A stretch of 32,750 nt of DNA from an uncultured Clostridia bacterium (GCA_947631315.1 CANRLA010000003.1:1-32750), one strand, 5' to 3'. Shown: positions 5,754 to 31,009, counted from the first letter of the stretch. Numbers and translations: made by a program. Notes: a model not told the origin generated them from the letters alone.

Positions 5754-6875
5754 ATGAAAACTAAAACAATTTTATTTTTAACTATATTATCTGCAGTTTT
5801 ATTTTTCGTTCCTAGTTTTTGTAATGCTGAAAGTATAACTGCAAATGATGATGCAAGTTTAAGAAGTGCTATAACTGGTGAAGGTACTTCTGTAGTAATT
5901 ACATTAGAAGATGATATTGATTTAGATGCTCCTATAGAGTTTACTGATAAAACTGTAACTATTAATGGTAATGGACATACAATATCTACATCTAAGCAAT
6001 TAGAAGATGCTTCATGGCCAAAGGTTGGAAATGCTACACTTCTTACTGCTGGTTCAGATACTGGAAAATTAATATTAAATAATGTTAATTTAAAAAATGC
6101 TCCAAAATATGGTGCTCAAGCATACAATGGTGGTACTCTTGTATTAAATAATGTTAATGTAACAGGTTGCGGATATGGAGGTATTATAACAAATGCTGGT
6201 ATCATTGAAGTTCAAAATTTAACATTAGGAAAAAATGGAGCAGATGACAATGTTGGTATTGAAATAGCAAAGAGTCAAAGTCTTGGTGCTGATAAAGAGC
6301 CTAAATTAATAATGAATGGTACTCTTAATTCAAGCCAAATGGAAAATGTTGTATATTTAGCAGTAAATGATAATTTAACAACTTTTGATGTTGAAAACAG
6401 TGAAACTACAACTGATAAGATTCTTGTTAGTGGAAATACAGTAGTTGTTACAGACCCACAAAATAATGTAAAATTCGTAAGTAACGAAAACTTCAAAGAA
6501 GGTTTAAAATTTGAAGGTGATGAGTTTGTTCCAAACATTACTGTAAGTGTTCGTATAATGTACAAAACTGTTGATACTCAAATAATGTCTAATTCTACTA
6601 TTTCTATGGATCAATTAAATGCATTAATTAATTTAGAAGAATTAGGTTATGGTGATTATACTCTTGATGGTTTCTATTTAGATGCTGATTTTAAAGAGAG
6701 TTTTAATTTTGAAACTCCTTTAACTGAAGACACTGTTATTTATGCAAAATTAGCTCCAAAAGCTGAAAAAGATGAAACTCCAAAAACTGGTGTTGAAAGT
6801 TATTTAGGATTAGCCTTTGCTATTTTAGGTACAGCAATCTTAAGTATAGTTGTTCTTAAAAACAAAGAATTCTAA
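5754..6875 (+). CDS. Secreted cell-surface protein with pectate-lyase-like repeats, InlB B-repeat-like segment and C-terminal TPKTG sorting signal
   Basis: Signal peptide MKTKTILFLTILSAVLFFVPSFCNA; IDLDAPIEFTDKTVTINGNGHTI; YTLDGFYLDADFKESFNFETPLTEDTVIYAKL; C-term ETPKTG-VESYLGLAFAILGTAILSIVVL-KNKEF. Confidence 0.8.
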   Translation: MKTKTILFLTILSAVLFFVPSFCNAESITANDDASLRSAITGEGTSVVITLEDDIDLDAPIEFTDKTVTINGNGHTISTSKQLEDASWPKVGNATLLTAGSDTGKLILNNVNLKNAPKYGAQAYNGGTLVLNNVNVTGCGYGGIITNAGIIEVQNLTLGKNGADDNVGIEIAKSQSLGADKEPKLIMNGTLNSSQMENVVYLAVNDNLTTFDVENSETTTDKILVSGNTVVVTDPQNNVKFVSNENFKEGLKFEGDEFVPNITVSVRIMYKTVDTQIMSNSTISMDQLNALINLEELGYGDYTLDGFYLDADFKESFNFETPLTEDTVIYAKLAPKAEKDETPKTGVESYLGLAFAILGTAILSIVVLKNKEF

Positions 6876-7093: not shown

Positions 7094-7897
7094 ATGAAAA
7101 ATAATTCAAAAAAATCGTTTCGTAAAATCGTTTATATTGTACTAATTATAATTGCTGTTCTTTCCGTTGTTTACATTATAAAATATTTCTATGATTATTA
7201 CACTTCTAAGAATCAAAGTAATCTACTAAATGAAGTTACAATTTCAGAGCAAACTAATTTTCTAATTGAAAATAATTTGCAAGAGTCAACCACTGAACCT
7301 ATTAAGTCTGAAAGAATTTTAAAATTGGAAGAACTAAAAAAGCAAAATGATGATATTATTGGTTGGGTTGAAATTGAAAATACTGACATTAATTACCCTG
7401 TCTTACAATCCGAAGACAATGATTTTTATATGAATCATAATTATAAAGGTGAGTTTTCTACTGCTGGTGCAATTTTTTTGGACAAAGATTATAACTGGAG
7501 TATTCCTAGTAGCAACCTTCTTATATATGGTCACAATATGAAAAATAGCACAATGTTTCAAAATTTACTAAATTATAATAGTATAGATTATTATTATGAG
7601 CATCCTATTATAAGATTTACCACCTTGCAAGAAGATGCCCAATATGAAATTATTGGTGCATTTTATTCTAAGGTATATTTTAAAACTGATACCAATGTTT
7701 TTAAGTATTATAAATTTATAAATGCTAAAAATGAAGATGAATATAACAGTTACATTCAAAATGTAAAAAAAGCTTCTTTATACGATACAGGAATAAGTGC
7801 TCAATATGGCGAACAATTAATTACTTTATCAACTTGTTCTTATCATACTGCTGATGGAAGGTTTGTTGTAGTTGGCAGAAAGAAAGTAGTTGAATAA
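7094..7897 (+). CDS. Class B sortase
   Basis: N-terminal TM anchor; DIIGWVEIENTDINYPVLQSEDNDFYMNHNYKGEFSTAGAIFLD; LLIYGHNM (His), TLSTCSY (Cys), GRFVVVGRK (Arg). Confidence 0.9.
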   Translation: MKNNSKKSFRKIVYIVLIIIAVLSVVYIIKYFYDYYTSKNQSNLLNEVTISEQTNFLIENNLQESTTEPIKSERILKLEELKKQNDDIIGWVEIENTDINYPVLQSEDNDFYMNHNYKGEFSTAGAIFLDKDYNWSIPSSNLLIYGHNMKNSTMFQNLLNYNSIDYYYEHPIIRFTTLQEDAQYEIIGAFYSKVYFKTDTNVFKYYKFINAKNEDEYNSYIQNVKKASLYDTGISAQYGEQLITLSTCSYHTADGRFVVVGRKKVVE

Positions 7898-8089: not shown

Positions 8090-8998
8090 TTAATCTCTTT
8101 TTACTGTTTCTTTTTTATTTAGCAACTTAATTCTAACTAATAAGGTTATTGAAACTAATGCAAATATACTAATTAATATAAATGTTAAAATATCTATATC
8201 ACCTGTTTGTGGTAAAATGCCTGGTCTAACATCATCTTTTTTAGCATCATTTATATTAGTACTACTTCCGTTTTGATTTGCATTATTGCTACTTCCATTG
8301 TTTCCACCATTCTGACTTTCATCATTTTGGCTTCCACCATTTTGACCTTCGGCATTTTCGCCTTCGCCATTTTGACTTTCGCCATTTTGGTTTCCATCGT
8401 TTTGGCTTTCGCCGTTTTGATTTTCGTCATTTTGACTTCCACCATTTCCACCATTTCCATCATTTTCATCATGATTTCCGCTGTTTCCATCGTCATCGCT
8501 TCCTACTTTTTCTTGTATTGTTACTTTAACAGAAGCATCACTAGTTGCTATATCTGAAACTGCATTTGATCCTGAAAAATTAGTTAATTTAATTGTTGTT
8601 TCTCCTAATGCTGCATTTTCTTTTACTTTTAATTTAATTTTTCCTATATCTTGTGCTGTATTTACCACTTGACAGTCTTTAGTAGTACCTATAATTATTT
8701 TATTTTGATAAAATGGTTCATCCCATTTTTCAGTTCCTTCTGACACATCATATTCAAATATTGAAGAATCAAATTCTATATTAGATTTATAAGCTCCAAT
8801 ACCTTTTTCACCACTCTCTACAGATATATCGCTTAATGAAATAGTTAAAGTAAGTTCATCTCCTATGTGAACCTGAGAATGATTTGCACTTAAGCTTACT
8901 TTGTAGCTATCGTTTGCTGCTTTTACATTTGTACTAAGTGCTAGCATTGTAATTAATACTATAGCAATTACATTTATTCTCCTTATAATATTTTTCAT
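8090..8998 (-). CDS. Cell-wall anchored single-cohesin protein (signal peptide, cohesin domain, Q/N/G/S/E-rich linker, LPQTG sorting signal)
   Basis: VSLSANHSQVHIGDELTLTISLSD...GAYKSNIEFDSSIFEYDV...GKIKLKVKENAALGETTIKLTNF is cohesin-like; C-term ILPQTGDIDILTFILISIFALVSITLLVRIKLLNKK. Confidence 0.8.
   Translation of the reverse strand: MKNIIRRINVIAIVLITMLALSTNVKAANDSYKVSLSANHSQVHIGDELTLTISLSDISVESGEKGIGAYKSNIEFDSSIFEYDVSEGTEKWDEPFYQNKIIIGTTKDCQVVNTAQDIGKIKLKVKENAALGETTIKLTNFSGSNAVSDIATSDASVKVTIQEKVGSDDDGNSGNHDENDGNGGNGGSQNDENQNGESQNDGNQNGESQNGEGENAEGQNGGSQNDESQNGGNNGSSNNANQNGSSTNINDAKKDDVRPGILPQTGDIDILTFILISIFALVSITLLVRIKLLNKKETVKRD
8269..8492 (-). repeat. Degenerate tandem repeat encoding the QNGESQND-type linker of the cohesin protein
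   Basis: Repeated ccattttgactttcgccattttggtttcc-type units; protein GSQNDENQNGESQNDGNQNGESQNGEGENAEGQNGGSQND. Confidence 0.8.
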
Positions 8999-9032
8999 TT
9001 TTCTCTCCTATCCATTTGATTAATTTTATAAT

Positions 9033-12000
9033 TTAGTTATTTTTTCCTTGTGTTATTACTAATCTTTTTAATAATAATAAGTCTGTTACTGTAATTTCGC
9101 CATCTTTGTTTATGTCTGCTGCTATAAATTGATCATCTTTTAAAATCCAATCTTCATTTGTTCCTGCTACTAAATGTCTTGTCACTTGTAATATATCTGT
9201 TTCTGAAATCTCTCCATCTTTATTGGTATCTCCTAAGATATTTTCATCAGTTTCTCCTGGAGTTTTAATCCAATCAACATTAGCTACAGCTGTCCCTTGA
9301 TTTCCTGCTTCATCTTCAAATTCAAATGTGAAAGTTCCATTCTTTGTGAATGTATAGTTTCTAGCCATATTGTTATTTGTAATAATTATGTTTTCACTTT
9401 CATTTGCTAAGCTAACTGTTACTGGCTCTTCTGTTTCTTCTTGAATACTATATACAACTTCAGCTGTTGGTGCTGTTTTGTCTATCCAGCTAACCTTTGC
9501 TGTATGCTCTTTTATGTCTGAATCGTCAGCGTCATTAGCATCTTTATATCTGAATGTAAATTCATTATTTTCATTAAATGTATATGCTTTAGAATCGTGA
9601 TTTACTATTGCAACTTTCATGCTCTCTACTTCTTCTTCTGCGTTTGCATTTTGGTTAATCATGTATGGGTTAATTGTTGCAACTACATTTTTGTTTGTTG
9701 TTCTTGTTATATCATAAGATATATCACTTGCTATTATATTTCCATCTTCAAGATAATCTGCTTTTATAGATTTGTAAGCTATGTTGCTTGCTTTATCAAG
9801 AAGTTTAAATTGATAATTTCCACTTTCTTCAAATGTATATTCTAATGGGTTTGCTTTTACTTGTTTTAATCCTCTCATTGCTTCTTCTGCATCATCAGGT
9901 ATATCTTGAGCACTTATGCTAACTCCATTTTTGTCAAGATATTCTTCGCCTTTTACTTCACCGTTTTCCATTGTTGTTACATAATATCCAACATCTTCTG
10001 CTTTTCCTGTTGTATTTGTATATATTATTCTTGTGATTATTCCTTCTTCATTTAATTCTTCTACTTTATAAATATTTCCTGAAGCATTTAAGTAAGAAAT
10101 TTTATTAACTTTTCCATCATTTACTTCAACATAGTTTATCTTTTTATCTTCATTATCTAATAAGTAAACATCTTCACTTATGCTATCTAGTAAGATACGT
10201 AATTTTTTATTTCCATCTAATTTATAATTAACATCTGCTGTTGGTCCGTTTGTGTCTATCCAGTCTACCTTAGCATAAGCTGTGCCTTTATTTCCGTTCT
10301 TGTCTTCAAATTCAAATGTGAAGTCTGTATTTTCTTTAAATATATAAGTATCGCTTCCGTTATTATTTGTTATTGTAATTTCTGTACTTGGATTAACAAG
10401 TTTTGCTATTACATAGTCTTTCGTTAATTCTCTAGTACTATATTCTATTTCTGCTGTTGGTTTTGTTCTGTCAATTTTTGTTGTATCTTCATATAGATTT
10501 ATCATTGCTATTGATGCGAACATATCGTATGTTTCTAATCTTAATCTGACATATTTTGCTTTAACACTATCATCAAAATCTATTGTTCTTAATGCAATAT
10601 TCTTTTCAAAGTCTTCACTTTTCTTAACTTCTGTCCATTCTTTTCCGTCCATGCTTACTAATATTGTTGCATTTTTTATGTAATCTGGGTCATTATCTTT
10701 ATATTTTGTTTGTATAAATTCTACTGCTGATATATATTTTGGATAGTTTAATTCAACTGTAATATATGTGTCTACATTATTTTTTATAATATCTTCAGCA
10801 AAGTTTGTGTGCCATAATGTATGTATGTTTCCATCTATTGCATTTGGTGCATAATATGGTCTCTTACTATCAAGTGATTGAGTTGAATATCCTGTTCTTT
10901 CTTCATCTTCAGTCTTATTGTCCGGATAATCTTTAATTGATAAGTTTGAAACACTTATATATTTTCTATTCTCAGGTTGATTATCCTCAGTAAATTCATA
11001 TACTTCTGATGGTGCACTTGCAAGTTTATTTCCTGTAGGTGTTTGTCTTACTTGTAGTGTTTTATTTCCAGTTAAATCAGGTGAAGATGTTTTAAATGAT
11101 TTCCAGTTATCACCTTCTTTATAACGCCATTGTGTTTTTTCTATATCTATACCAATTAGACGATTTTCTAGGTCGTTAGCATATAAATTAGTTGGTAAAG
11201 TTTGCTCTTCTATCTCTATTTTGTATATATTTGCTTCTGAATAATCAGTTCCAACTATATGAACATATATGTCATTTTCTGCTGTAATACTGTTAACTTC
11301 GTCTTTGCTAAGTTTTAATTTATGTTCTGCATCTGCATCAAATGATACTTCTTTCCATTTACTCTTATCATCTATAGTGTCTTTTCCACTTAAGTTGTAG
11401 TCCCAACGAACACCGGTACCATCAAAACGACTTGATAATACTATTTTTTCTGCATCTACTCCGTCAAATGAGAAGCTTGCAAGTGATGTGTCTGTTTGAC
11501 CTAATAAGAAGTTTGCTACTGTTCTTGTTATTCCTGGTTGATATACTTTATATGTTGCAGGATCTTTCGCTGTGTCGTCACTTAAGTTCTTTCCTTGTGT
11601 TAATAAGTCTGTTTCTAAAAGTGTAAATCTAAATGAATAATCTACTGTTTTGATTTTTCCTTCAATTTGGTCTAATAAGTTTTTCATTGGTAGTGGATAT
11701 GGCATTAATGCATTTCCTAATTCTACTGCTAATTCATAGTAGTCTTTGTCCGCTTTCGCTAGACTTCCTTCGTATGCATTATATGTATTTATTAATCCCC
11801 ACCAAGCATCTATATTAATTTTTTGTACTTTTAATGCTTCTCTATAGATTTCTTCTTGTTTCTTTAAGTCACCTTTATATATATCTGCTGTCATCATAAT
11901 TTTTTCAGCTTTTTCATAATTTGCATAATCATTTATAGCTTCTTGTGATAACATCATATATGTTGCAGCCCAGCCACTAACATAAGAATCGTTACCCCAT

Positions 12001-13775
12001 CCTAAAGGCATTCTTGTTTGCATCTTTTCACTAGCTCCTGATTGAGCCCATCCTGATACGTCATTGTCCATTGACCAGTAACCTTTTCCATTTGCATCTT
12101 TTCTATAGTAAATGATTGCTGCGTGTCCTGGTTGACTTATAACTGATGCTGGAGTACCATGTGCTGCACGGATATGGCAACCTAATTTTGATATACCACC
12201 ACAAACTGCTCCTGTTCCATATGAGTTTCTCATACTCATCCATGCTTTATATACTTTGTCCACTACTGTTCCATCTTCTTTTACATCTCCTGTATATGAT
12301 ACATGGTATTCGCTGAATATTCCTTCAAATAATTTATCCCATTCAGCCATTTTCTTTTCAGGGTCATGGAAAATTGGATTATCAAAGTTTGGCCATACAT
12401 AAGCAATATATGTATGAGGTTGTAAATATTTTTCTGGATTTTCGTCTTTATGTTCATCTATTCTTTTTTGTGTATAAGCATTGAACCACTCTAATTCTTC
12501 ATCATCTGTAATGTTATTCATTACATAACGCATTTCTTCAACTTTTAATGCTTCAAACCATTGTCCTTGGTCTTGAGTTTCACTTACTTTGAATTTTCCT
12601 CCGTCATATAATTTCTTATATATTGCATAACGATTTACAGAATCTGATCTATTTGCAGGGTGGTCAATTTGAGCCCAATATCCAACTTTTGTTGCATGAG
12701 TTAATGAAAGTGAAATTGCCATCTTTCTATAAACATCACCTTTTGTTAAGCTTGGTTCCCATGGGTTGTTTGTTAGCTCTGTTTTATCAAAATCTTCATG
12801 ATAAGCATTGTAAAGTCTTGTAAGTTCTTTTATTGAATTATAGTAACTTCCGCCATCAGGTTCTCCACCTAATACATACAAGCGAAGAGTTTTTAAATCA
12901 TTCATTAACCATCTAACAGTTTCTTTATATTGTTCATCTTGTTTAACTATTGCTTGTAAAAGGTCATAACCTACTGCATTTACAAATGTTCTTTGTAATA
13001 AAGTTTGTTCATAATCATTTATTTGTTGTTCTAAAGTTTTGTCTTTTAATTCATTATCATATTGTTCTACTGTTTTAATAAAATCAGCATCTTCCATTGT
13101 AGGTTCTTCATATCCATCTTTATATAATCTCGGATTTGCATAAACAGCATGGTCTGAAGAATTGCTTCCAATACAATCACATTCTAATTTTAAATATTTT
13201 GCACCTGTAACATCTATTGTTAATTTTTCCGCATTTTTATCTCCTTTTAATGCGTTTGGATTTTCTGATGTTTTTAGTGTCCAGTTTTGTTTATCATCAG
13301 ATGTGTATATTTTGAATTTAACACCATTTCCTTGATTTCCACGACTTTCATCAATACCAACATATGTACTGAATTTATCAAATCCATAATCACCAATATC
13401 ATATACTAGTGTTGAATTTGCGTGCGCAGAAATTCCTTTTAAAAAGTATGTTTTTTCTCCATCTATTAATAAAGTGATTAGTCCATGGTTATATTTTGTT
13501 TCTAAGTTACTGTCTAATGTAATACTTCCCCATCCTACTTTTGAATCTTCTTTAATATATTCAATGTCAGATAAATATTTGCTCATCTCATTAGAAACTG
13601 TTGCTGCTAGATATTTACCTTCCTTTTCACTTAATGTTGTTGTCTCAGATTTTTGACTGATATTTAAGTATTGAGCACAGACTTTAATTGAAAAAAATAA
13701 AATAAAAAATAAAATAGAACTAGCAACTAGTTTGTTCAAAATTTTTTCTGTTTTAAATTTTAATTTGTTTTTCAC
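9033..13775 (-). CDS. Large secreted multidomain protein: NPCBM, central transglutaminase-like papain-fold region, F5/8 type C (discoidin), Ig-like repeats, C-terminal type I dockerin
   Basis: NPCBM-like DSKVGWGSITLDSN...LIDGEKTYFLKGISAHANSTLVYDIG; CGGISKLGCHIRAAHGTPASVISQPGHAAIIYY...YWSMDND with Cys/His/Asp order; discoidin-like APNAIDGNIHTLWHTNF...YVRLRLETYD; dockerin DTNKDGEISETDILQVTRHL...DINKDGEITVTDLLLLKRLV. GTG start after AAAGGGGG. Confidence 0.85.
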   Translation of the reverse strand: MKNKLKFKTEKILNKLVASSILFFILFFSIKVCAQYLNISQKSETTTLSEKEGKYLAATVSNEMSKYLSDIEYIKEDSKVGWGSITLDSNLETKYNHGLITLLIDGEKTYFLKGISAHANSTLVYDIGDYGFDKFSTYVGIDESRGNQGNGVKFKIYTSDDKQNWTLKTSENPNALKGDKNAEKLTIDVTGAKYLKLECDCIGSNSSDHAVYANPRLYKDGYEEPTMEDADFIKTVEQYDNELKDKTLEQQINDYEQTLLQRTFVNAVGYDLLQAIVKQDEQYKETVRWLMNDLKTLRLYVLGGEPDGGSYYNSIKELTRLYNAYHEDFDKTELTNNPWEPSLTKGDVYRKMAISLSLTHATKVGYWAQIDHPANRSDSVNRYAIYKKLYDGGKFKVSETQDQGQWFEALKVEEMRYVMNNITDDEELEWFNAYTQKRIDEHKDENPEKYLQPHTYIAYVWPNFDNPIFHDPEKKMAEWDKLFEGIFSEYHVSYTGDVKEDGTVVDKVYKAWMSMRNSYGTGAVCGGISKLGCHIRAAHGTPASVISQPGHAAIIYYRKDANGKGYWSMDNDVSGWAQSGASEKMQTRMPLGWGNDSYVSGWAATYMMLSQEAINDYANYEKAEKIMMTADIYKGDLKKQEEIYREALKVQKINIDAWWGLINTYNAYEGSLAKADKDYYELAVELGNALMPYPLPMKNLLDQIEGKIKTVDYSFRFTLLETDLLTQGKNLSDDTAKDPATYKVYQPGITRTVANFLLGQTDTSLASFSFDGVDAEKIVLSSRFDGTGVRWDYNLSGKDTIDDKSKWKEVSFDADAEHKLKLSKDEVNSITAENDIYVHIVGTDYSEANIYKIEIEEQTLPTNLYANDLENRLIGIDIEKTQWRYKEGDNWKSFKTSSPDLTGNKTLQVRQTPTGNKLASAPSEVYEFTEDNQPENRKYISVSNLSIKDYPDNKTEDEERTGYSTQSLDSKRPYYAPNAIDGNIHTLWHTNFAEDIIKNNVDTYITVELNYPKYISAVEFIQTKYKDNDPDYIKNATILVSMDGKEWTEVKKSEDFEKNIALRTIDFDDSVKAKYVRLRLETYDMFASIAMINLYEDTTKIDRTKPTAEIEYSTRELTKDYVIAKLVNPSTEITITNNNGSDTYIFKENTDFTFEFEDKNGNKGTAYAKVDWIDTNGPTADVNYKLDGNKKLRILLDSISEDVYLLDNEDKKINYVEVNDGKVNKISYLNASGNIYKVEELNEEGIITRIIYTNTTGKAEDVGYYVTTMENGEVKGEEYLDKNGVSISAQDIPDDAEEAMRGLKQVKANPLEYTFEESGNYQFKLLDKASNIAYKSIKADYLEDGNIIASDISYDITRTTNKNVVATINPYMINQNANAEEEVESMKVAIVNHDSKAYTFNENNEFTFRYKDANDADDSDIKEHTAKVSWIDKTAPTAEVVYSIQEETEEPVTVSLANESENIIITNNNMARNYTFTKNGTFTFEFEDEAGNQGTAVANVDWIKTPGETDENILGDTNKDGEISETDILQVTRHLVAGTNEDWILKDDQFIAADINKDGEITVTDLLLLKRLVITQGKNN

Positions 13776-13885: not shown

Positions 13886-15155
13886 ATTTCCGTTTTTTAT
13901 TAAAAACCTGATATAAGTGTGGTGATATAATATTAATATGTTTTCTTATGATGAAAGGAAAAATTATGAAAAAATGGAAACATATTAATTTTGAACAAAG
14001 GAAAACTATTGTATCAGGTATTACTCATAATAAAAAATTATGTGAAATTGCAACTATCTTGAATCTAGACCCAACTTCTATTTCTAAAGAAGTTAAAAGA
14101 AATCGTACTTTATCTAAATATGGTAGGACTTCTCAAGAATGCCCTTTATTATCTAGATGGCCTTACGTTTGTACTAATTGTAATAAAAAATATACATCTT
14201 GTCATTTTAACCAATATAGATATGATTCTAAGGTTGCTCAAAATAATGCAGATTGCAATCTAATTAACTCTAGAAAAGGTATTGATATTTCTTCTGAAGA
14301 CTTTAAAGAACTAGATCTTATTATTAAAAATGGTGTTGATAACAATAAATCAATTTACCAAATTAAAATTGAAAATTCTGATAAAGTAACAAAATCATTA
14401 ACTACTTTATACAGATATATTGATAAAGGTTATTTAACAACTAAGAAAATTGATTTACCTTTTGCTGTAACTTACAAAAAAAGAAAATATAAAAGTAAGT
14501 ACAACTACTCTGACAATATAATAGACAGAAGTAATCATACTTACCTTGATTATCTTGCATACATACATAATCACCCAAATTCGTATGTATGGCAATTAGA
14601 CTTTCTTGGTTCAATTAAGAAAGACTCTAAGTCTATTTTAACACTTTCTTTACCTAATTTGCAATTCTCTATCATTGAAATAATAAATCTTCCCAATTCT
14701 TCTAAAGTCGTTTCATTCTTTGACTACATTGAAAATAAAATTGGAACAGATGCTTTCTTAGATTTATTCCCTGTTATTCTTACTGATAGAGATCCTTGTT
14801 TTAATGACTATGATGGCATTTGTTTTTCAAAAAATACTGGCGAAGAAAGATGCAAGTTATTTTATTGCGACCCTTATGTGTCAAATCAAAAGCCAAATGT
14901 TGAGAACATTAATAAACAATTAAGAAAATTTTTTCCTAAGGGAAAATCTGTTGATAATTATACATCTAAAGACATAAAAGAAAAGAATTTTATACTTTTA
15001 GATACTCCTCTTAAATCTTTAGATTCATTTACACCAAAACAAGCTTTTATAAAAGTATTTAGTGAAGAATTATTTAATAACTTATTAAAATAATTCAAAT
15101 TAATTATAATCATAAGAAAACATATAAACTGAAATAAGTCTGAAAAAACGGAAAT
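13886..15155 (+). mobile_element. IS30-family insertion sequence (ends approximate)
   Basis: Transposase flanked by inverted repeats: ATTTCCGTTTTTT (13886-13898) vs AAAAAACGGAAAT (15143-15155), and ATATGTTTTCTTATGAT (13936-13952) vs its reverse complement (15109-15125). Confidence 0.7.
13966..15093 (+). CDS. IS30-family transposase
   Basis: HTH region KHINFEQRKTIVSGI...ATILNLDPTSISKEVKRNR; catalytic WQLDFLG, LTDRDPCF, KPNVENINKQLRKFFPKG. Confidence 0.9.
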   Translation: MKKWKHINFEQRKTIVSGITHNKKLCEIATILNLDPTSISKEVKRNRTLSKYGRTSQECPLLSRWPYVCTNCNKKYTSCHFNQYRYDSKVAQNNADCNLINSRKGIDISSEDFKELDLIIKNGVDNNKSIYQIKIENSDKVTKSLTTLYRYIDKGYLTTKKIDLPFAVTYKKRKYKSKYNYSDNIIDRSNHTYLDYLAYIHNHPNSYVWQLDFLGSIKKDSKSILTLSLPNLQFSIIEIINLPNSSKVVSFFDYIENKIGTDAFLDLFPVILTDRDPCFNDYDGICFSKNTGEERCKLFYCDPYVSNQKPNVENINKQLRKFFPKGKSVDNYTSKDIKEKNFILLDTPLKSLDSFTPKQAFIKVFSEELFNNLLK

Positions 15156-22235: not shown

Positions 22236-25200
22236 TTAAACTACATATTTTTTTATAATTAATGCTCCCGCTCCAAATATTAACACTGCTCCTGCAATTA
22301 TTGCTATATATGTTTGTGCTATACCTGTTACTACTGTTAGTATTACTGGTGCATCATCCATATCGTCTTCTCCGTCTTTTTTATTATTTGGCGTTGAATC
22401 TATATCAGGTGAATCTGATGGATTACTATCTTTACTTATTTCTGCTACATTTATTTTTAGATTTAAGTTTTCATCTCCATTTATCCATGTTAGCAATACT
22501 TCTACCGTTGCTGATTCTCCTGGTTGTAATAGTGTGTCTTTCAATTGGTCTGTTACTATCTTTCCATTTTCTTCTCTCCACTTTGGATTATCTGCTTGAT
22601 TAAATTTTAATCCTTCCGGTATATAGTCTGATATCTCTGTTGCGTATCCTTCTATCTCTCCTTCGTTTGTTATTCTTATCTGATATCTAAATTTTACTAT
22701 TGTATTTTCTATTCTGTCTTTATTTAGTTCTACTTTTACTACTGGCTCCGGGTCTTGCTCTGCATAATGGTCTGTATCCATCTCTTTTTGTATACCATCT
22801 TCTATTAATATTGCTTGACTTACCCATTTTCTTAATGCTAAATCAAAATATTTTACATATAGATGTTCTACATCTTGGTCGTCTTCCCCTTCATTCCATT
22901 CATTTGGTGTTGAGTCTGTATCGTCTACTTCTTCTCCTTCTTCGTCTGTATCTTTACTTATCTGTGCTTTATTCGTTATTGTTCTATCTGATGTGTTTGG
23001 TTCTGTTACTCTAAATGCTATCTTTACATCTTTATAATCAGGTGTGTCCATTGTCGTTGGGTCAAATCCTTTTAATAGATTCTCTCCTTTTACTTTTTCA
23101 TTTTCTTTTGATAAATAATCGGTTGCTATCGTTTCTGCTTTTTTTATTTCTGTTGTTATATTTCCGTCTTTATCATACATTATCCATTTATATTCTTTAT
23201 TTATTTCATGGTCTTGTATAAATTCTAACCCTGCTGGTATATCATCTTTTATCTCTGCTGCATAGCCTGCTTGGGTTCCTTCATTATATACTCTTATTGT
23301 GTATGTTACTACATCGTTATTTGCTACTCTTACTGGATCTTTTGGATGTGTATATTCCATATTTGTTATTTCTTTTCCATCAACTATTGTTCCATATTTT
23401 GATGTATCCACTTGTGGTACTCTTGTTGTTATTTCCTCGTCATTTACTCCTGTTATAAATTTTCTTAATGCTAAATCAAATTTTTCTAATATGATTTTTT
23501 CAAAGTCATCATCGTCTTCTTGTCCTTCATAATGATAATCTTTGTCTGTTAAATCTTCTTTATTATCGTCATTTCCTTTATAATTTGGAAGTTCTGAATC
23601 ATTTGGAAGTTTTACTTTCTCATCATTATCTCTATCCGGTATATTATATTCATTATTGCTTGCTGTTATTTCTGCTATATTTGTGATTTTCTTAGAAACT
23701 TCTGTTGTATTTTTTACTTTGCATCTAACTTGAATATCCTTATAATCTAAGGTTCCTTCTCCATTAAATCCTTTTAATATATTTTCTTCACTTTGAGCTT
23801 TTGATAAATATGTTGTCTTTATTGTTCTTCCTGTTTCATCACTACTATCTAAAGTCCATAAATATTTTTTGTTCATTTCATCATTTGGTAAGAACTCTAG
23901 TTCAGGTGGTAAGTGATCTACTATCTCATCTGCATATCCATCAACTTGACCTTCATTATATATTCTTAATGTATATGTTACTATATCACCTACTTTTACT
24001 TTTATTGGTTCTTTTGAATGCTTATAATCTGCTGTTTTTTCTCCATTTAATAATGGTGAAACATCTACAGTTGGTGCCCTATCATACTCTCCATTTGTTT
24101 TTAATTCAGTTTCATTTACAGCTGTTATAAATTTTCTTAATGCTAAGTCAAAATTTTTAATATATACTTTTTCAAAGTCATCATCATCTTCTTCGCCTTC
24201 ATAATAATGATTACTATCACTTAAATCGTCTGGATTTGTATTTTTTCCTTTATAGTTTTCCATATTATCTTTATTTACATTTGGGCTGTTTGATGGCTGT
24301 GAATCTATATCACTTCCATTTGTATTGTCTTCTGTATCATAATCATTACTAATATATGCTACATTTGTTAAAATACCATTATTACCCATCATAGCTTCAT
24401 AATTAACTTTACAATCGATTTCTATTGTTTCATAATCTAAATCCCCATCAAATGTTTTTAAATCTTTTGCTTGGTCTTGGATTTCAAATATCACTCTATT
24501 TGTATTTTCATTATATTGTATTTTATAGGTATTTTTTTCTTGACCATCAGAACCAGTTGATGTAACAGTTCCACTACTTAATAACACTAATCCTCTTGGT
24601 AGTTGGTCTATTATTTGACTAGCATATCCTGTTTTTTCACCTTCATTGTAAATCGTTATGTTGTAGGTTACTTTATCATTATTTTTTACCAAAATAGGAT
24701 CTTTCTTATGATTGTAATCTGCTGTTGTATCTTGTTTACTTTCTAATCCTGTGTCATTTATATTTGGATTTCTAGATGGAATATTTAAGTCTTTTAATAA
24801 CACATCATTTATTTTTGTTATATATTTTCTTAATGCTAAATCAAATTTTTTATAAGTATTTTTTATAACGAATCCGCTTCTAGAATTTCCTGTAATTTGT
24901 GCAGTATATCCTCGAGGTAAATCTTTTTCTATAACTGTATAAAATATCTCTTGCCCATCTTTATCTGTATCAAGATCTGTAAATGTATATTGCCAGTTAT
25001 TTCCCTCATTTAAAGTTGCTTCGTTTTTAACTTCACCATTAGCTAGTAATTCCACTACTACTGATGATGGTCTCGTACTTTGAGCATTATCTGAATCATC
25101 CCAAACCTTTTTAACTGATACTTGCGTTTTATCTGTTTTATGATAATTTGTTATAGTAAATCCGTCTGTTTGGTTTCCTGATACTGTTTTAGTATATTCA

Positions 25201-26951
25201 GGTATTTCAGTTTTTTCTCTTACCGTATAAACTATTTCACGGCGATCACTATTATTTTTTTGTAAATTTGTGAATGTATGTTTCCAGTTATTACTTGCAT
25301 TTAATTTTACTGTTTGACTTACCTCTCCATCAGCTAGTAATTCCACCTCTACTTCTTCCAGTCTTAATCCGTCTTGGTCATTATTATCAGACCAAATTTT
25401 TTCTACTGGTATACTTATGTTTGTAGTTATATGAGTATTAGTAATTGTATAACCACTTGCAGCATCTCCAGTTAATGATGATGTATAACCATTTGGTGTA
25501 TTTGCTTCTTTAACGGTATAGTTTATTACCTTTCCTGATTTATCATATTTATCTAATCCTAAAAATGTATATGTCCAGCTATTACCCTCATTAAGTTCTA
25601 TTGTTTCACCTTTTTGCACATTATCCGCTAATAACTGCACTTTTACATTTTGCGGTCTTATATTATCTTGATTGTTAGAATCTTCCCATACTTTAGTAAC
25701 AGTTATATTAGTAAGGTCAGGTTTTAATGTTTGTGTATCATCAGCACTAAAGTTAATCTTTTCGTCTTTAATTTCTACAACTGGTTGATTTGATGTATTA
25801 GAATTTGATGGAGTAGACCAATAAGTTATTTCTCTATTAATATTTAATGCTGAAATGCTAATTTTTATATCAGTATTGTTTTTTATTGAATTTACAGGTA
25901 CTTGAATATAAAAGTTATTTCCAATTGTTGATTTTATTTTATCACTTATGTTATTACCTGTTATTTCTACCTTACTACTATTTAAGATTTTAATATCTGT
26001 TTGTGTTATAGCGTTTGCAGTTACTGTTGCACTAAAATTTGTATAGTTATCACTATTTTTTGTTATTTTATAAGGTCCTATTACATAATGTCCGTTACTA
26101 TTCTCTATTGTTACTCCATTTTTTATTAATGTTAATGCTTGATTTGATGTGTTTGATGTATAAGTTTTGTGTCGTTCTGGCTCTGATATTAGATAATCAT
26201 ATAATGCATCTATTGGACACTCCTCTTCATCATAACTATATTTACTACATATATCTACTTTGTTTGCACCACCATTTTGTGTGCCTACATAAAAAGTTTC
26301 TGCTTTAGTAGGTTGGTACTGACCATTTGCATTTGTTATATACCATATTGCAGCTTGTTGTATAACTTCTATCAAATCTTTAAACTTTTGTTCTTTTGAA
26401 GAATTATTTTCAGCTGTCATTCCTGTTAAGAAAGCATCTTTATTCAATGAATCACCATATGAATCTTTAACTTTACTTAATAACGTATTAACTGAATCTT
26501 CATCTTCAGGTATGCAAATATTATCTAAAAGCCATAGTAATTTATTATAATTTTCTCCCTGTGGAAATACGCTTTCACTATTGTATGGAGAGGAGATTTT
26601 CGATTTATCTTTGAAATCAAAATATTGATTATATTGTACTATACTACTTTGCGAATTTTCTGACCCAAATCCAATTCCATCTTTTATACAATATAATGCT
26701 TCGCTAGTATTTTTAGGAGATGTTCCACCAGCATCAGTATATTCAACTATTTTAATTATTGGTAAAGGTGCACTACTACCACCGTTCTTTCTTCCTGAGG
26801 TGTAATAACCTGTTGGTCTGCCATTTCCTTTGCCATATAGGCCTAGATATTTTCCAGGCGTGGTACTTTGTGCAAAATTGGAATTACAAAATAGTATTGC
26901 AATTGTTATAAAAAAAGTTAGTAATAATCCTATTTTTTTAGTTTTTTTCAT
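22236..26951 (-). CDS. Cys-Gln thioester-domain surface adhesin: signal peptide, TED, 3 CnaB-type repeats, 4 FDLALRK-type stalk repeats, C-terminal TM
   Basis: TED signatures ALYCIKDGIGFG and VIQQAAIWYIT; CnaB VTKVWEDSNNQDNIRP, VEKIWSDNNDQDGLR, VKKVWDDSDNAQSTRP; FDLALRKYIT/KFIT/KFIT/KWVS; C-term TM with KK, no LPXTG. Confidence 0.87.
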   Translation of the reverse strand: MKKTKKIGLLLTFFITIAILFCNSNFAQSTTPGKYLGLYGKGNGRPTGYYTSGRKNGGSSAPLPIIKIVEYTDAGGTSPKNTSEALYCIKDGIGFGSENSQSSIVQYNQYFDFKDKSKISSPYNSESVFPQGENYNKLLWLLDNICIPEDEDSVNTLLSKVKDSYGDSLNKDAFLTGMTAENNSSKEQKFKDLIEVIQQAAIWYITNANGQYQPTKAETFYVGTQNGGANKVDICSKYSYDEEECPIDALYDYLISEPERHKTYTSNTSNQALTLIKNGVTIENSNGHYVIGPYKITKNSDNYTNFSATVTANAITQTDIKILNSSKVEITGNNISDKIKSTIGNNFYIQVPVNSIKNNTDIKISISALNINREITYWSTPSNSNTSNQPVVEIKDEKINFSADDTQTLKPDLTNITVTKVWEDSNNQDNIRPQNVKVQLLADNVQKGETIELNEGNSWTYTFLGLDKYDKSGKVINYTVKEANTPNGYTSSLTGDAASGYTITNTHITTNISIPVEKIWSDNNDQDGLRLEEVEVELLADGEVSQTVKLNASNNWKHTFTNLQKNNSDRREIVYTVREKTEIPEYTKTVSGNQTDGFTITNYHKTDKTQVSVKKVWDDSDNAQSTRPSSVVVELLANGEVKNEATLNEGNNWQYTFTDLDTDKDGQEIFYTVIEKDLPRGYTAQITGNSRSGFVIKNTYKKFDLALRKYITKINDVLLKDLNIPSRNPNINDTGLESKQDTTADYNHKKDPILVKNNDKVTYNITIYNEGEKTGYASQIIDQLPRGLVLLSSGTVTSTGSDGQEKNTYKIQYNENTNRVIFEIQDQAKDLKTFDGDLDYETIEIDCKVNYEAMMGNNGILTNVAYISNDYDTEDNTNGSDIDSQPSNSPNVNKDNMENYKGKNTNPDDLSDSNHYYEGEEDDDDFEKVYIKNFDLALRKFITAVNETELKTNGEYDRAPTVDVSPLLNGEKTADYKHSKEPIKVKVGDIVTYTLRIYNEGQVDGYADEIVDHLPPELEFLPNDEMNKKYLWTLDSSDETGRTIKTTYLSKAQSEENILKGFNGEGTLDYKDIQVRCKVKNTTEVSKKITNIAEITASNNEYNIPDRDNDEKVKLPNDSELPNYKGNDDNKEDLTDKDYHYEGQEDDDDFEKIILEKFDLALRKFITGVNDEEITTRVPQVDTSKYGTIVDGKEITNMEYTHPKDPVRVANNDVVTYTIRVYNEGTQAGYAAEIKDDIPAGLEFIQDHEINKEYKWIMYDKDGNITTEIKKAETIATDYLSKENEKVKGENLLKGFDPTTMDTPDYKDVKIAFRVTEPNTSDRTITNKAQISKDTDEEGEEVDDTDSTPNEWNEGEDDQDVEHLYVKYFDLALRKWVSQAILIEDGIQKEMDTDHYAEQDPEPVVKVELNKDRIENTIVKFRYQIRITNEGEIEGYATEISDYIPEGLKFNQADNPKWREENGKIVTDQLKDTLLQPGESATVEVLLTWINGDENLNLKINVAEISKDSNPSDSPDIDSTPNNKKDGEDDMDDAPVILTVVTGIAQTYIAIIAGAVLIFGAGALIIKKYVV
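22300..23592 (-). repeat. Large direct repeat, copy 1 (partner 27294-28586, constant offset 4994)
   Basis: Near-identical nucleotides with no indels; 22408-23060 appears identical by eye to 27402-28054. Confidence 0.9.
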
Positions 26952-27229: not shown

Positions 27230-30200
27230 TTAAATTACATATTTTTTTATTATAAACGAACCTGCAGAAATTATTAATATTGCACCGGCTATTATTGCTA
27301 TATAATTTTGTGCTATACCTGTTACTACTGTTAGTATTACTGGTGCATCATCTATATCATCTTCTCCGTCTTTTTTATTATTTGGTGTTGAATCTATATC
27401 CGGTGAATCTGATGGATTACTATCTTTACTTATTTCTGCTACATTTATTTTTAGATTTAAGTTTTCATCTCCATTTATCCATGTTAGCAATACTTCTACC
27501 GTTGCTGATTCTCCTGGTTGTAATAGTGTGTCTTTCAATTGGTCTGTTACTATCTTTCCATTTTCTTCTCTCCACTTTGGATTATCTGCTTGATTAAATT
27601 TTAATCCTTCCGGTATATAGTCTGATATCTCTGTTGCGTATCCTTCTATCTCTCCTTCGTTTGTTATTCTTATCTGATATCTAAATTTTACTATTGTATT
27701 TTCTATTCTGTCTTTATTTAGTTCTACTTTTACTACTGGCTCCGGGTCTTGCTCTGCATAATGGTCTGTATCCATCTCTTTTTGTATACCATCTTCTATT
27801 AATATTGCTTGACTTACCCATTTTCTTAATGCTAAATCAAAATATTTTACATATAGATGTTCTACATCTTGGTCGTCTTCCCCTTCATTCCATTCATTTG
27901 GTGTTGAGTCTGTATCGTCTACTTCTTCTCCTTCTTCGTCTGTATCTTTACTTATCTGTGCTTTATTCGTTATTGTTCTATCTGATGTGTTTGGTTCTGT
28001 TACTCTAAATGCTATCTTTACATCTTTATAATCAGGTGTGTCCATTGTCGTTGGATCAAATCCTTTTAATAGATTTTCTCCTTCTACTTTTTCATTTTCT
28101 TTTGATAAATAATCTGTTGCTATCGTTTCTGCTTCTTTTATTTCTGTTGTTACATTTCCTTCTTTATCATACATTATCCATTTGTATTCTTTATTTATTT
28201 CGTGTTCTTGTATAAATTCTAATCCCTCTGGAATATCATCTTTTATCTCTGCTGCATAGCCTGCTTGGGTTCCTTCATTATATACTCTTATTGTATATGT
28301 TACTATATCATTATTTGCTACTCTTACTGGATCTTTTGGATGGGTATATTCCATATTTGTTATTTCTTTTCCATCAACTATTGTTCCATATTTTGATGTA
28401 TCCACTTGTGGCACTCTTGTTGTTATTTCCTCGTCATTTACTCCTGTTATAAATTTTCTTAATGCTAAATCAAATTTTTCTAATATGATTTTTTCAAAGT
28501 CATCATCGTCTTCTTGTCCTTCATAATGATAATTTTTGTCTGTTAAATCTTCTTTATTATTATCATTTCCTTTATACTTTGGAAGTTCGCTATCTTGAGG
28601 CATTGTAACATTTTTTTCGTTATCTCTATCAGTTAGATTCTCACTATTACTACTAATTGTAATTTCAGCTATATTGGTTATTTTCTTTAATGTTTGTGCA
28701 GTTGGAGCAACTTTGCATCTAATTTGTATCTCTTTATAATTCAATGTAGAATTTGTTTGCTCAAATGCTTTTATAATATTATCTTCATCATGCTCTTTTG
28801 ATAAATATTTTGTTCTAATCGTTCTTTGTGTTCTATCTGAGCTGTCAATTGTCCATAAATATTTTTTGTTTATTTCATCATTTGGTAAAAATTCTAATTC
28901 AGGTGGTAAGTGATCTACTATTTCATCTGCATATCCATCAACTTGACCTTCATTATATATTCTTAATGTATATGTTACTATATCTCCTGTAGAAACACTG
29001 ACAGGTGTTTTTACATGTTCATAGCTTGCTGTTGTTTCTCCATTTAATAATGGATTTATATCTACTTTAGGCTCTCTATCATATAATCCATTTGTTTTTA
29101 ATTCAGTATCATTTACAGCTGTTATAAATTTTCTTAATGCTAAATCAAAATATTTTCCCTGTAATACTAAGTCTTCAAAATCATCATCATCTTCATATCC
29201 TTTACCTTGCGTAGATGTTCCTGGCGAATATGAATCTTTATTATCATTTACGTTTTCAGGTATTGAGTCCCTATCTTGAGCATTTGCATCATTATATGTT
29301 TCTGTTATTTCTGCCACATTTTTTAAATGTGTATCTGTTGTTTCTACAGAAGCTGTAACTCTACATTCAACTTGAACATCTTTATAATCTAAAACATATT
29401 GTCCATCCTTAGGATTTTTATCAAATGCCTTTATCAAGTTTCCTGCTTGATTTCTTTGTTTTGATAAATAATTTGTTCTTATTATCTTATTATCATTTGA
29501 GTCTACTGTCCATCCATAAGTTGCATTTATATTGCTTTCATTTTGTGGTACTAATTCTAATCCATTTGGTAAATAATCTGTTATTTCTTCAGCATATCCA
29601 TCTATTTCACCTTCATTGTAAACTCTAATAGTGTATATAACTTTGCTTCCTACACTTACTGGTAGTGCATTTTTTACATGTGGCTTTTTAGCTGTTGTTC
29701 CATTGTCCAACGCTGAAGCATCTCCTGTTGCTAAAGCTTGTAAATTTTGATTTGTAATTTGTGGTTCTCTTGAAGGTGTTACATCTTTTCCATTTATTTG
29801 TGTAATGAATTTTCTTAATGCTAAATCAAAATTAGGTTTTGTAATATTTTTTGTATCTTCAAAGTTAATTACTACATTATTTTTTTCGATAATAACTACT
29901 GGTTGTGTTGTAGAAACTTGATTTGAAGATGCTGACCAATATGTTAATGTTTTTTCCTCTTTCTCTGCTGATATTCGTATTTTTACTTGTGAAACTGAAG
30001 TATTTGAAGGGAATTGTATATAAAATTCTTGTCCTATTGCATTTTTTATTTTTTCTGTTGTTGTACTTCCTCCAAATTCAGTTCTATTGCTATCAACTAT
30101 TTTAGCTGTATCTATTTCTGATTGACCATTTAAAACTTTTGCATCAAAACTTGCATATTGGTTTATATTTTCTGCTGTTAATTTATATGGTCCTACAAAA

Positions 30201-31009
30201 ACATCTCCGCCGTCAAATATTATTGTTGCTTTATCTTTTTCAAGATTGATTGAATTACTACTTGATATAGATTCATATTGATAGTCACTATTTAGTTCAG
30301 CTCCCTTAATTAAATATTCATAAATTTTTGAAATTGGACTATCTGTTTCATCTACTTCATATTTATCTCCTAAACTTGTCGATGTTCTACCATTGTCATC
30401 TGATACATGAAATGTATCATTCTTATTAGGTTCATACTCATCTCCACTATTTGTTATATACCATATTGCTGTTTGTTGAATTACTTCTAAGATATCTTTT
30501 TGTTCCTCTGCATCTGTCACATATTCTGTAAAATCAGTTGCCTCAGCTTTTTCTAGTAAAGTATTTACTGATTTACTATCTTCAGGGATACATATATTAT
30601 CTAATATCCACATTAATTTATTATAATTATTATTTGTAGGAAGTGCGCTTTTATATGTTGAATCTATTGAGTTAGGATTCCTTAAGTCAAAGTATTCTGT
30701 ATAATGTACTATTGGTTGAGAGCCACCTGCTCCAAATCCAACTCCATCTTTTAGACAATAAATAGCTTCATTATTATTTTTTTGAGTATTTCCATTTTGA
30801 TTATCATATTCGACTATTTTTATTATAGGTAATTTATTACCATTATTTTTTCTACCTGATGTATAAAAACCTGTAGGTCTACCATTTCCTTGTTCATATA
30901 ATCCTAAATACTTGCCATTAGTTGTATTTGCTGCAAAACTGCTTGTATTAAAAACTAGCATTGCAATTAAAAATAAAAATACAATTAATAAATTTTTAAA
31001 TTTTTTCAT
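27230..31009 (-). CDS. Paralogous Cys-Gln thioester-domain surface adhesin without CnaB repeats; 4 FDLALRK-type repeats and C-terminal TM
   Basis: TED signatures AIYCLKDGVGFG and VIQQTAIWYIT; N-term GKYLGLYEQGNGRPTGFYTSGRKN shared with the neighbour. Confidence 0.87.
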   Translation of the reverse strand: MKKFKNLLIVFLFLIAMLVFNTSSFAANTTNGKYLGLYEQGNGRPTGFYTSGRKNNGNKLPIIKIVEYDNQNGNTQKNNNEAIYCLKDGVGFGAGGSQPIVHYTEYFDLRNPNSIDSTYKSALPTNNNYNKLMWILDNICIPEDSKSVNTLLEKAEATDFTEYVTDAEEQKDILEVIQQTAIWYITNSGDEYEPNKNDTFHVSDDNGRTSTSLGDKYEVDETDSPISKIYEYLIKGAELNSDYQYESISSSNSINLEKDKATIIFDGGDVFVGPYKLTAENINQYASFDAKVLNGQSEIDTAKIVDSNRTEFGGSTTTEKIKNAIGQEFYIQFPSNTSVSQVKIRISAEKEEKTLTYWSASSNQVSTTQPVVIIEKNNVVINFEDTKNITKPNFDLALRKFITQINGKDVTPSREPQITNQNLQALATGDASALDNGTTAKKPHVKNALPVSVGSKVIYTIRVYNEGEIDGYAEEITDYLPNGLELVPQNESNINATYGWTVDSNDNKIIRTNYLSKQRNQAGNLIKAFDKNPKDGQYVLDYKDVQVECRVTASVETTDTHLKNVAEITETYNDANAQDRDSIPENVNDNKDSYSPGTSTQGKGYEDDDDFEDLVLQGKYFDLALRKFITAVNDTELKTNGLYDREPKVDINPLLNGETTASYEHVKTPVSVSTGDIVTYTLRIYNEGQVDGYADEIVDHLPPELEFLPNDEINKKYLWTIDSSDRTQRTIRTKYLSKEHDEDNIIKAFEQTNSTLNYKEIQIRCKVAPTAQTLKKITNIAEITISSNSENLTDRDNEKNVTMPQDSELPKYKGNDNNKEDLTDKNYHYEGQEDDDDFEKIILEKFDLALRKFITGVNDEEITTRVPQVDTSKYGTIVDGKEITNMEYTHPKDPVRVANNDIVTYTIRVYNEGTQAGYAAEIKDDIPEGLEFIQEHEINKEYKWIMYDKEGNVTTEIKEAETIATDYLSKENEKVEGENLLKGFDPTTMDTPDYKDVKIAFRVTEPNTSDRTITNKAQISKDTDEEGEEVDDTDSTPNEWNEGEDDQDVEHLYVKYFDLALRKWVSQAILIEDGIQKEMDTDHYAEQDPEPVVKVELNKDRIENTIVKFRYQIRITNEGEIEGYATEISDYIPEGLKFNQADNPKWREENGKIVTDQLKDTLLQPGESATVEVLLTWINGDENLNLKINVAEISKDSNPSDSPDIDSTPNNKKDGEDDIDDAPVILTVVTGIAQNYIAIIAGAILIISAGSFIIKKYVI
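27294..28586 (-). repeat. Large direct repeat, copy 2 (partner 22300-23592)
   Basis: See copy 1. Confidence 0.9.

Follow-up and report, generated by a model that had tools for sequence, protein, structure and literature searches.

We found that two adjacent genes of an uncultured Clostridia bacterium very probably encode a two-component, non-cellulosomal surface tether, in which a large dockerin-tailed protein (the payload) would be held by a wall-anchored protein with one cohesin. Cohesins and dockerins are best known from multi-enzyme cellulosomes. The genes lie in the window, the whole 32,750-nucleotide stretch analysed here, which is contig C3 of a 1.35 Mb genome (76% complete). The tether interpretation is well supported by the conserved adjacency of the genes, the replacement of the anchor in relatives, and the matched swapping of dockerin and cohesin types. 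These features, like the domains themselves, can be read directly from the sequences; from the same material we infer that the dockerin and the cohesin of the pair physically bind each other. An earlier, sequence-only reading of this stretch had proposed both open reading frames and their 34-nt spacing on the same strand, and both were confirmed (Table 1).

Table 1. Features of the gene pair and of the neighbouring sortase gene (window coordinates)
Feature	Coordinates	Strand	Details or evidence
Class B sortase gene, convergent to cohesin gene	7094..7897	+	PF04203 E 2.5e-12; TIGR03064 175 bits
Single-cohesin anchored protein, 302 aa	8090..8998	-	
Hydrophobic C-terminal helix, then tail with basic residues	8135..8191	-	sequence reading
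LPQTG sortase motif, residues 262-266	8201..8215	-	sequence and TIGR01167
Asn/Gly/Glu/Ser-rich linker, residues about 163-263	8210..8512	-	sequence reading
Cohesin domain	8525..8884	-	PF00963; AF2 pLDDT 94.8; Foldseek cohesin matches
Spacer, 34 nt, payload stop to cohesin start	8999..9032	-	
Payload ORF, 1580 aa, GTG start	9033..13775	-	order: signal peptide, NPCBM, conserved core, F5/8C, Ig-like repeats, type I dockerin
C-terminal type I dockerin, two calcium-loop repeats, residues 1514-1572	9060..9236	-	PF00404 E 1.8e-10
F5/8 type C (discoidin-like) domain, residues 972-1091	10503..10862	-	PF00754 E 7.1e-18
Conserved payload core, residues 215-960	10896..13133	-	no Pfam family in window protein
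Putative active-site stretch Cys525/His551/Asp572	12060..12203	-	invariant columns C311, H337, N357, D358 and secondary structure
NPCBM/NEW2 carbohydrate-binding-type domain, residues 66-217	13125..13580	-	PF08305 E 1.3e-27
Predicted payload signal peptide, residues about 1-35	13671..13775	-	sequence reading

The 302-aa protein has the signal peptide, LPXTG motif, hydrophobic stretch, and positive tail of a sortase-anchored surface protein. Its cohesin domain (residues 40-158) matched PF00963 with an E-value of 4.2e-8 and 33.9 bits against a cut-off of 24.1, and the AlphaFold2 model of the domain, aligned with 43 relatives, reached the pLDDT given in Table 1. The top Foldseek matches of this model were cohesins, with E-values down to 5e-8, so that the N-terminal part of the protein has the fold on which the sequence-only reading had staked its claim. 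The nearest fold by TM-score was 2vo8, the Clostridium perfringens GH33 cohesin (0.80/0.85); the ScaE cohesin 2zf9 ranked 42nd in Foldseek (TM 0.60/0.48), and the C. perfringens cohesins thus fit better, in fold comparison only. A phmmer search of the window cohesin against the PDB sequences returned no cohesin, and the kinship is visible only when folds are compared. The sorting signal consists of LPQTG, a hydrophobic stretch, and NKKETVKRD; TIGR01167 scored 16.4 bits, barely above its cut-off of 15.9, and the Pfam Gram_pos_anchor profile stayed below its own (14 vs. 20). The secreted cohesin protein with an LPQTG signal that the sequence-only reading had described was confirmed. With a single cohesin, an LPXTG motif, and no dockerin, the protein would work like an anchoring scaffoldin of the ScaE type.

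The payload ends, as had been proposed, in a two-repeat type I dockerin, which scored 41.3 bits with PF00404 (cut-off 22.9) and has both DxNxDG...D calcium loops intact. Its best solved sequence relatives are the dockerins of XynY and CelS of C. thermocellum. The payload had also been described as having binding regions and no glycoside hydrolase, and Pfam agreed on both counts: it recognised the NPCBM and F5/8C domains but found no glycoside hydrolase.

Could the payload core be an enzyme? The AlphaFold2 model of the core reached a pLDDT of 88.9, and a fold search of the PDB returned nothing with E < 0.001, menin matching only weakly (probability to 0.66). Pfam gave no match to the core in the window protein; in the payloads of 65 relatives, it returned mainly sporadic TPR matches and weak, unrelated ones. 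The transglutaminase family PF01841 appeared neither in the window protein nor among the families listed for these 65 relatives, and the identification of a transglutaminase by profile was rejected. On the other hand, 65 sequences, from relatives 53-86% identical to the window protein, all keep Cys525, His551, Asn571, and Asp572, and the predicted secondary structure places Cys525 at the start of a helix and His551 and Asp572 on the following two strands. A cysteine at a helix start with histidine and aspartate on successive strands is the layout of transglutaminase- or papain-like enzymes, and we interpret the core as a putative cysteine enzyme of this kind. The "transglutaminase-like region" of the sequence-only reading thus keeps its invariant Cys/His/Asp residues and fitting secondary structure but gains no family match. 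Alternatively, the payload may be an adhesin, its NPCBM, F5/8C, and Ig-like repeats binding targets and its Cys-His-Asp core being structural or inactive. The large share of the protein taken up by binding and Ig-like modules would suit an adhesin, as would a core that belongs to no enzyme family in Pfam and matches no PDB fold significantly, but the invariance and enzyme-like placement of the three residues speak against it; we hold an adhesin to be possible rather than probable.

To find relatives, contigs were scanned with the payload core, and the best 80 of 412 were kept; these are mostly metagenome-assembled Clostridia, many from samples labelled Lapin. Among these best 80 of 412, the payload ended in a dockerin in 63 cases and in its own LPXTG or transmembrane tail in 12, and was cut off or broken in the remaining 5. 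A gene for a single-cohesin protein, in nearly all cases one with an anchor tail, lay 4-155 nt downstream of 48 of the 63 dockerin payloads compared with none of the 12 self-anchored ones (Fisher p 6.7e-7). PF00963 matched 43 of the 44 cohesin domains scanned, namely the window's and those of 43 neighbours. The payload tree requires no fewer than 9 switches between dockerin and self-anchored tails. When adjacency was compared in independent phylogenetic pairs, all pointed in the expected direction but were too few (median sign test p 0.125). The clearest exchange took place within the window's own clade: in L143, sister to the paired payload L111, a linker with LPYTG replaces the dockerin and there is no cohesin gene.

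The remaining 15 dockerin payloads of the best 80 have no adjacent cohesin, and in one of their genomes (that of L159) no cohesin was found. In several relatives (L094, L119, L144, L096, L113), the cohesin ORF is truncated or has no clear LPXTG. At L075/L119 (G054:C2, about 50400), a break within the linker splits the cohesin gene, whose remainder lies in another same-strand ORF, owing to either a mutation or an assembly error; the cohesin ORF of L094 is also short. Separately, a 623-aa frame with three cohesin matches (G027:C6:17018-18193) marks a relative with a true multi-cohesin scaffoldin.

Sortase genes accompany some of these loci. The profile search gave 10 sortase matches in the window genome, and 16 of the 80 relative loci have a sortase resembling the window's class B enzyme close to the payload; in several of these, e.g., L093, L108, and L115, the gene is convergent and comes right after the cohesin gene. 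Next to the sortase gene in the window, at 5754-6875 (+), is a gene for a 373-aa protein with a putative pectate-lyase-like adhesive domain and a Listeria-Bacteroides repeat-like match. Two more large surface-type proteins are encoded at 22236-26951 (-) and 27230-31009 (-), one with Cna_B/DUF11 repeats and the other with a thioester domain and DUF11 repeats. Directly upstream of the payload gene and divergent from it is an IS30-like transposase gene (13948-15093, +; NCBIfam 63.9 bits, below the cut-off of 80), a possible vehicle for module exchange.

Four dockerin types were distinguished: A (the window's, TDLLLxKRHLV), B (DILQINKHRL), C (TDLADAIQ), and D (NDLAKIKLHL). The type of the adjacent cohesin equalled that of the dockerin in 49 of 49 pairs. 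Across these pairs, the payload tree requires 9 or more changes of dockerin type, and the cohesin tree, which is divided cleanly by dockerin type, only 3, the fewest possible. The partial correlation of cohesin with dockerin distances, given the payload, was 0.92, and none of 5000 permutations was as high. Mean cohesin identity was 0.51-0.86 within types and 0.18-0.26 between them; the HMM that found the type B and C cohesins was seeded mainly from types A and D. The swapping can be seen by comparing L100 with L103: their payloads are 73-95% identical over most of the sequence preceding the dockerin, whereas their dockerins are 27% and their cohesins 29% identical.

Neighbouring dockerin and cohesin sequences could, however, stay matched by linkage alone, and the genomes in which type D modules are unlinked therefore matter. 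Where a type D payload had no adjacent cohesin, a type D cohesin was present elsewhere in 13 of the 14 genomes searched (at least 103 bits), compared with 1 of the 11 genomes whose payloads anchor themselves (p 3.5e-5). That lone genome (G165, apparently the same as G044) has a second, dockerin-tailed copy of the payload. If the matched types reflected mere block recombination of neighbouring sequence, with no dockerin-cohesin binding, adjacency in all 49 pairs and a breakpoint at the dockerin in L100/L103 would be expected, but not the presence of the unlinked cohesin in genomes that need one and its near absence from those that do not. Self-anchored payloads, moreover, are never followed by a cohesin gene, and cohesins are known to bind dockerins. 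We consequently regard block recombination as very improbable.

In most genomes with an unlinked type D cohesin, the cohesin adjoins a different, upstream dockerin-tailed protein, which has the payload's dockerin type and most often an internal cohesin; hence, the anchor may be shared there. This arrangement, in which the protein preceding the anchored cohesin ends in a dockerin and often has a cohesin of its own inside, is the usual one at the unlinked type D loci L192-L205 and suggests one shared anchor with a monovalent adaptor in type D lineages.

Could the window's cohesin also be an anchor common to several dockerin proteins, that is, a small surface scaffold rather than the payload's private partner? 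The window genome does contain further dockerin proteins. Its contig C9 has two further Pfam dockerins and a second cohesin. Two SH3 proteins encoded there end in dockerins; a 1305-aa protein on the same contig matches a transglutaminase weakly, contains an internal stretch that by eye resembles a cohesin, and has a weak dockerin, and 48 nt after it comes an anchored cohesin protein. HHalign found nothing in common between the payload and this transglutaminase-like protein (probability 0.5%). The proposal that the pair is unique in its genome was thus rejected, and with it the sequence-only reading's "self-contained" pair in the sense of the genome's only cohesin-dockerin system. Sharing is further favoured by the type D lineages, where the payload's dockerin type recurs on the protein directly upstream of the anchored cohesin. 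However, in the assembled part of the window genome, type A modules occur in the C3 pair only; the other dockerins (ADLLKIQKHLL, NDYLIIKDYI, MSDIALVLSSYR) are strongly divergent, each with its own downstream partner gene, and the low cohesin identity between types compared with that within them also argues against a common anchor, which we consider unlikely for the window. The earlier claim that one cohesin tethers one large protein is accordingly retained for the C3 pair, where adjacency, anchor replacement, and matched swapping agree with it, but not as a universal rule, since type D anchors frequently lie unlinked and may serve more than one protein.

The difference from a cellulosome, which had also been pointed out, held. 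All cohesin matches in the assembled window genome (76% complete) are single, with no multi-cohesin scaffoldin among them, and no dockerin-bearing plant cell wall glycoside hydrolases were found, the C9 dockerin proteins being SH3-containing or transglutaminase-like. A cellulosome was rejected on the grounds that the payload has no glycoside hydrolase and that no multi-cohesin scaffoldin was found in the assembled sequence. Elsewhere in this genome, L011 (G000:C40; 542-5301 and 6012-10774) consists of near-identical tandem copies of a sortase, a small wall-type protein ending in FDQTG and a hydrophobic tail, and a 1034/1035-aa protein with a sub-threshold dockerin match; the two large proteins diverge beyond their common N-terminal part.

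The C3 pair is part of a family-wide cohesin-dockerin theme: within the window's bacterial family, 137 of 146 genomes have dockerins and 53 of 60 have cohesins. Only 18 of 73 family dockerins have an adjacent Pfam cohesin. In 20 further, mostly cohesin-less loci, nearly all have a membrane-type partner gene bearing a short beta-domain, and in most a dockerin-tailed protein resembling a cell-wall hydrolase is immediately followed by the membrane-type protein. The N-terminal domain of the partner is sometimes a Pfam cohesin (L191) and usually the shorter beta-domain, whose relation to cohesins is doubtful. HHalign of the beta-domain against the cohesin profile gave 93% with all 20 rows and 86%, with only 22 columns aligned, after removal of the true cohesin L191 and six other rows. 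At L010 (G000:C9, 2140-9845) and L172-L190, dockerin-tailed SH3 proteins, apparently cell-wall hydrolases, have, within about 40 nt downstream, a membrane-type protein with an N-terminal beta-domain of about 95 aa and no Pfam cohesin call. This domain is possibly a new dockerin receptor. More tentatively, this small-genome gut Clostridia lineage might anchor many secreted proteins non-covalently by exchangeable, mutually orthogonal dockerin/socket sets, with the beta-domain sockets included as the new receptor.

In the mechanism that we propose for the pair, the 1580-aa payload would be secreted, dock on the wall-anchored cohesin through its C-terminal calcium-binding dockerin, and so be kept at the surface. 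The sortase would act on the cohesin protein, target glycans or glycoproteins would be bound through the NPCBM and F5/8C domains, and the putative transglutaminase-like cysteine centre in the core would provide catalysis. In relatives, the same payload would be held either through one of four types of matching dockerin/cohesin set or through an LPXTG or membrane tail of its own; as judged from these architectures, sets and tails appear to be interchangeable solutions to one anchoring problem.

How does this system compare with known ones? ScaE of Ruminococcus flavefaciens is, like the window's protein, a single LPXTG-anchored cohesin; it is covalently linked to the wall and receives the dockerin of CttA, a non-enzymatic binding protein, or of the scaffoldin ScaB (PMC2930009). 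What ScaE attaches, however, is the entire cellulosome of the sca cluster, whereas the window pair involves a single NPCBM/transglutaminase-like/F5-8C payload; each payload is immediately followed by one anchor gene, and there are at least four types that can be exchanged. The same paper describes dockerin-bearing transglutaminase-like proteins in strain FD-1, with group 4b dockerins and a five-gene tandem array (PMC2930009); like the putatively transglutaminase-like payload, they are secreted proteins with a C-terminal dockerin, a likeness in architecture. The FD-1 array lies in a genome with a very large cellulosome, and the available text reports no dedicated adjacent anchor (PMC2930009).

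The C. perfringens glycosidases resemble the window pair in using cohesin and dockerin without cellulose degradation, and 2vo8 is the nearest fold to the window cohesin by TM-score. Their modules, however, sit on enzymes and join glycosidases pairwise (PMC12997984), whereas the window cohesin protein is a wall anchor with no enzyme domain. The Limousia mucinolysome is, like the window's, a gut cohesin-dockerin system with an LPxTG-anchored cohesin protein, cSca5 (PMC12997984), but it has multi-cohesin scaffoldins carrying mucin-degrading glycoside hydrolases, none of which were found in the window system. A 2024 genomic survey lists single-cohesin proteins whose function is not known and LPxTG- or TM-anchored (nonSLH) cohesin proteins, some from presumably non-cellulolytic bacteria; its available part does not describe a gene pair with a large payload or anchor swapping (PMC11557425). 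In the literature searched, we did not find the payload family, the gene-pair architecture, or the matched anchor swapping described.

Cohesin-dockerin attachment would here be a modular alternative to covalent LPXTG anchoring. The relatives amount to a natural domain-swap experiment, in which near-identical payloads have plugs and sockets that are different yet matched, or have none. Such natural swaps make cohesin-dockerin specificity and the costs and benefits of detachable anchoring directly testable, and they provide protein engineering with at least four pairs that are candidates for orthogonal use.
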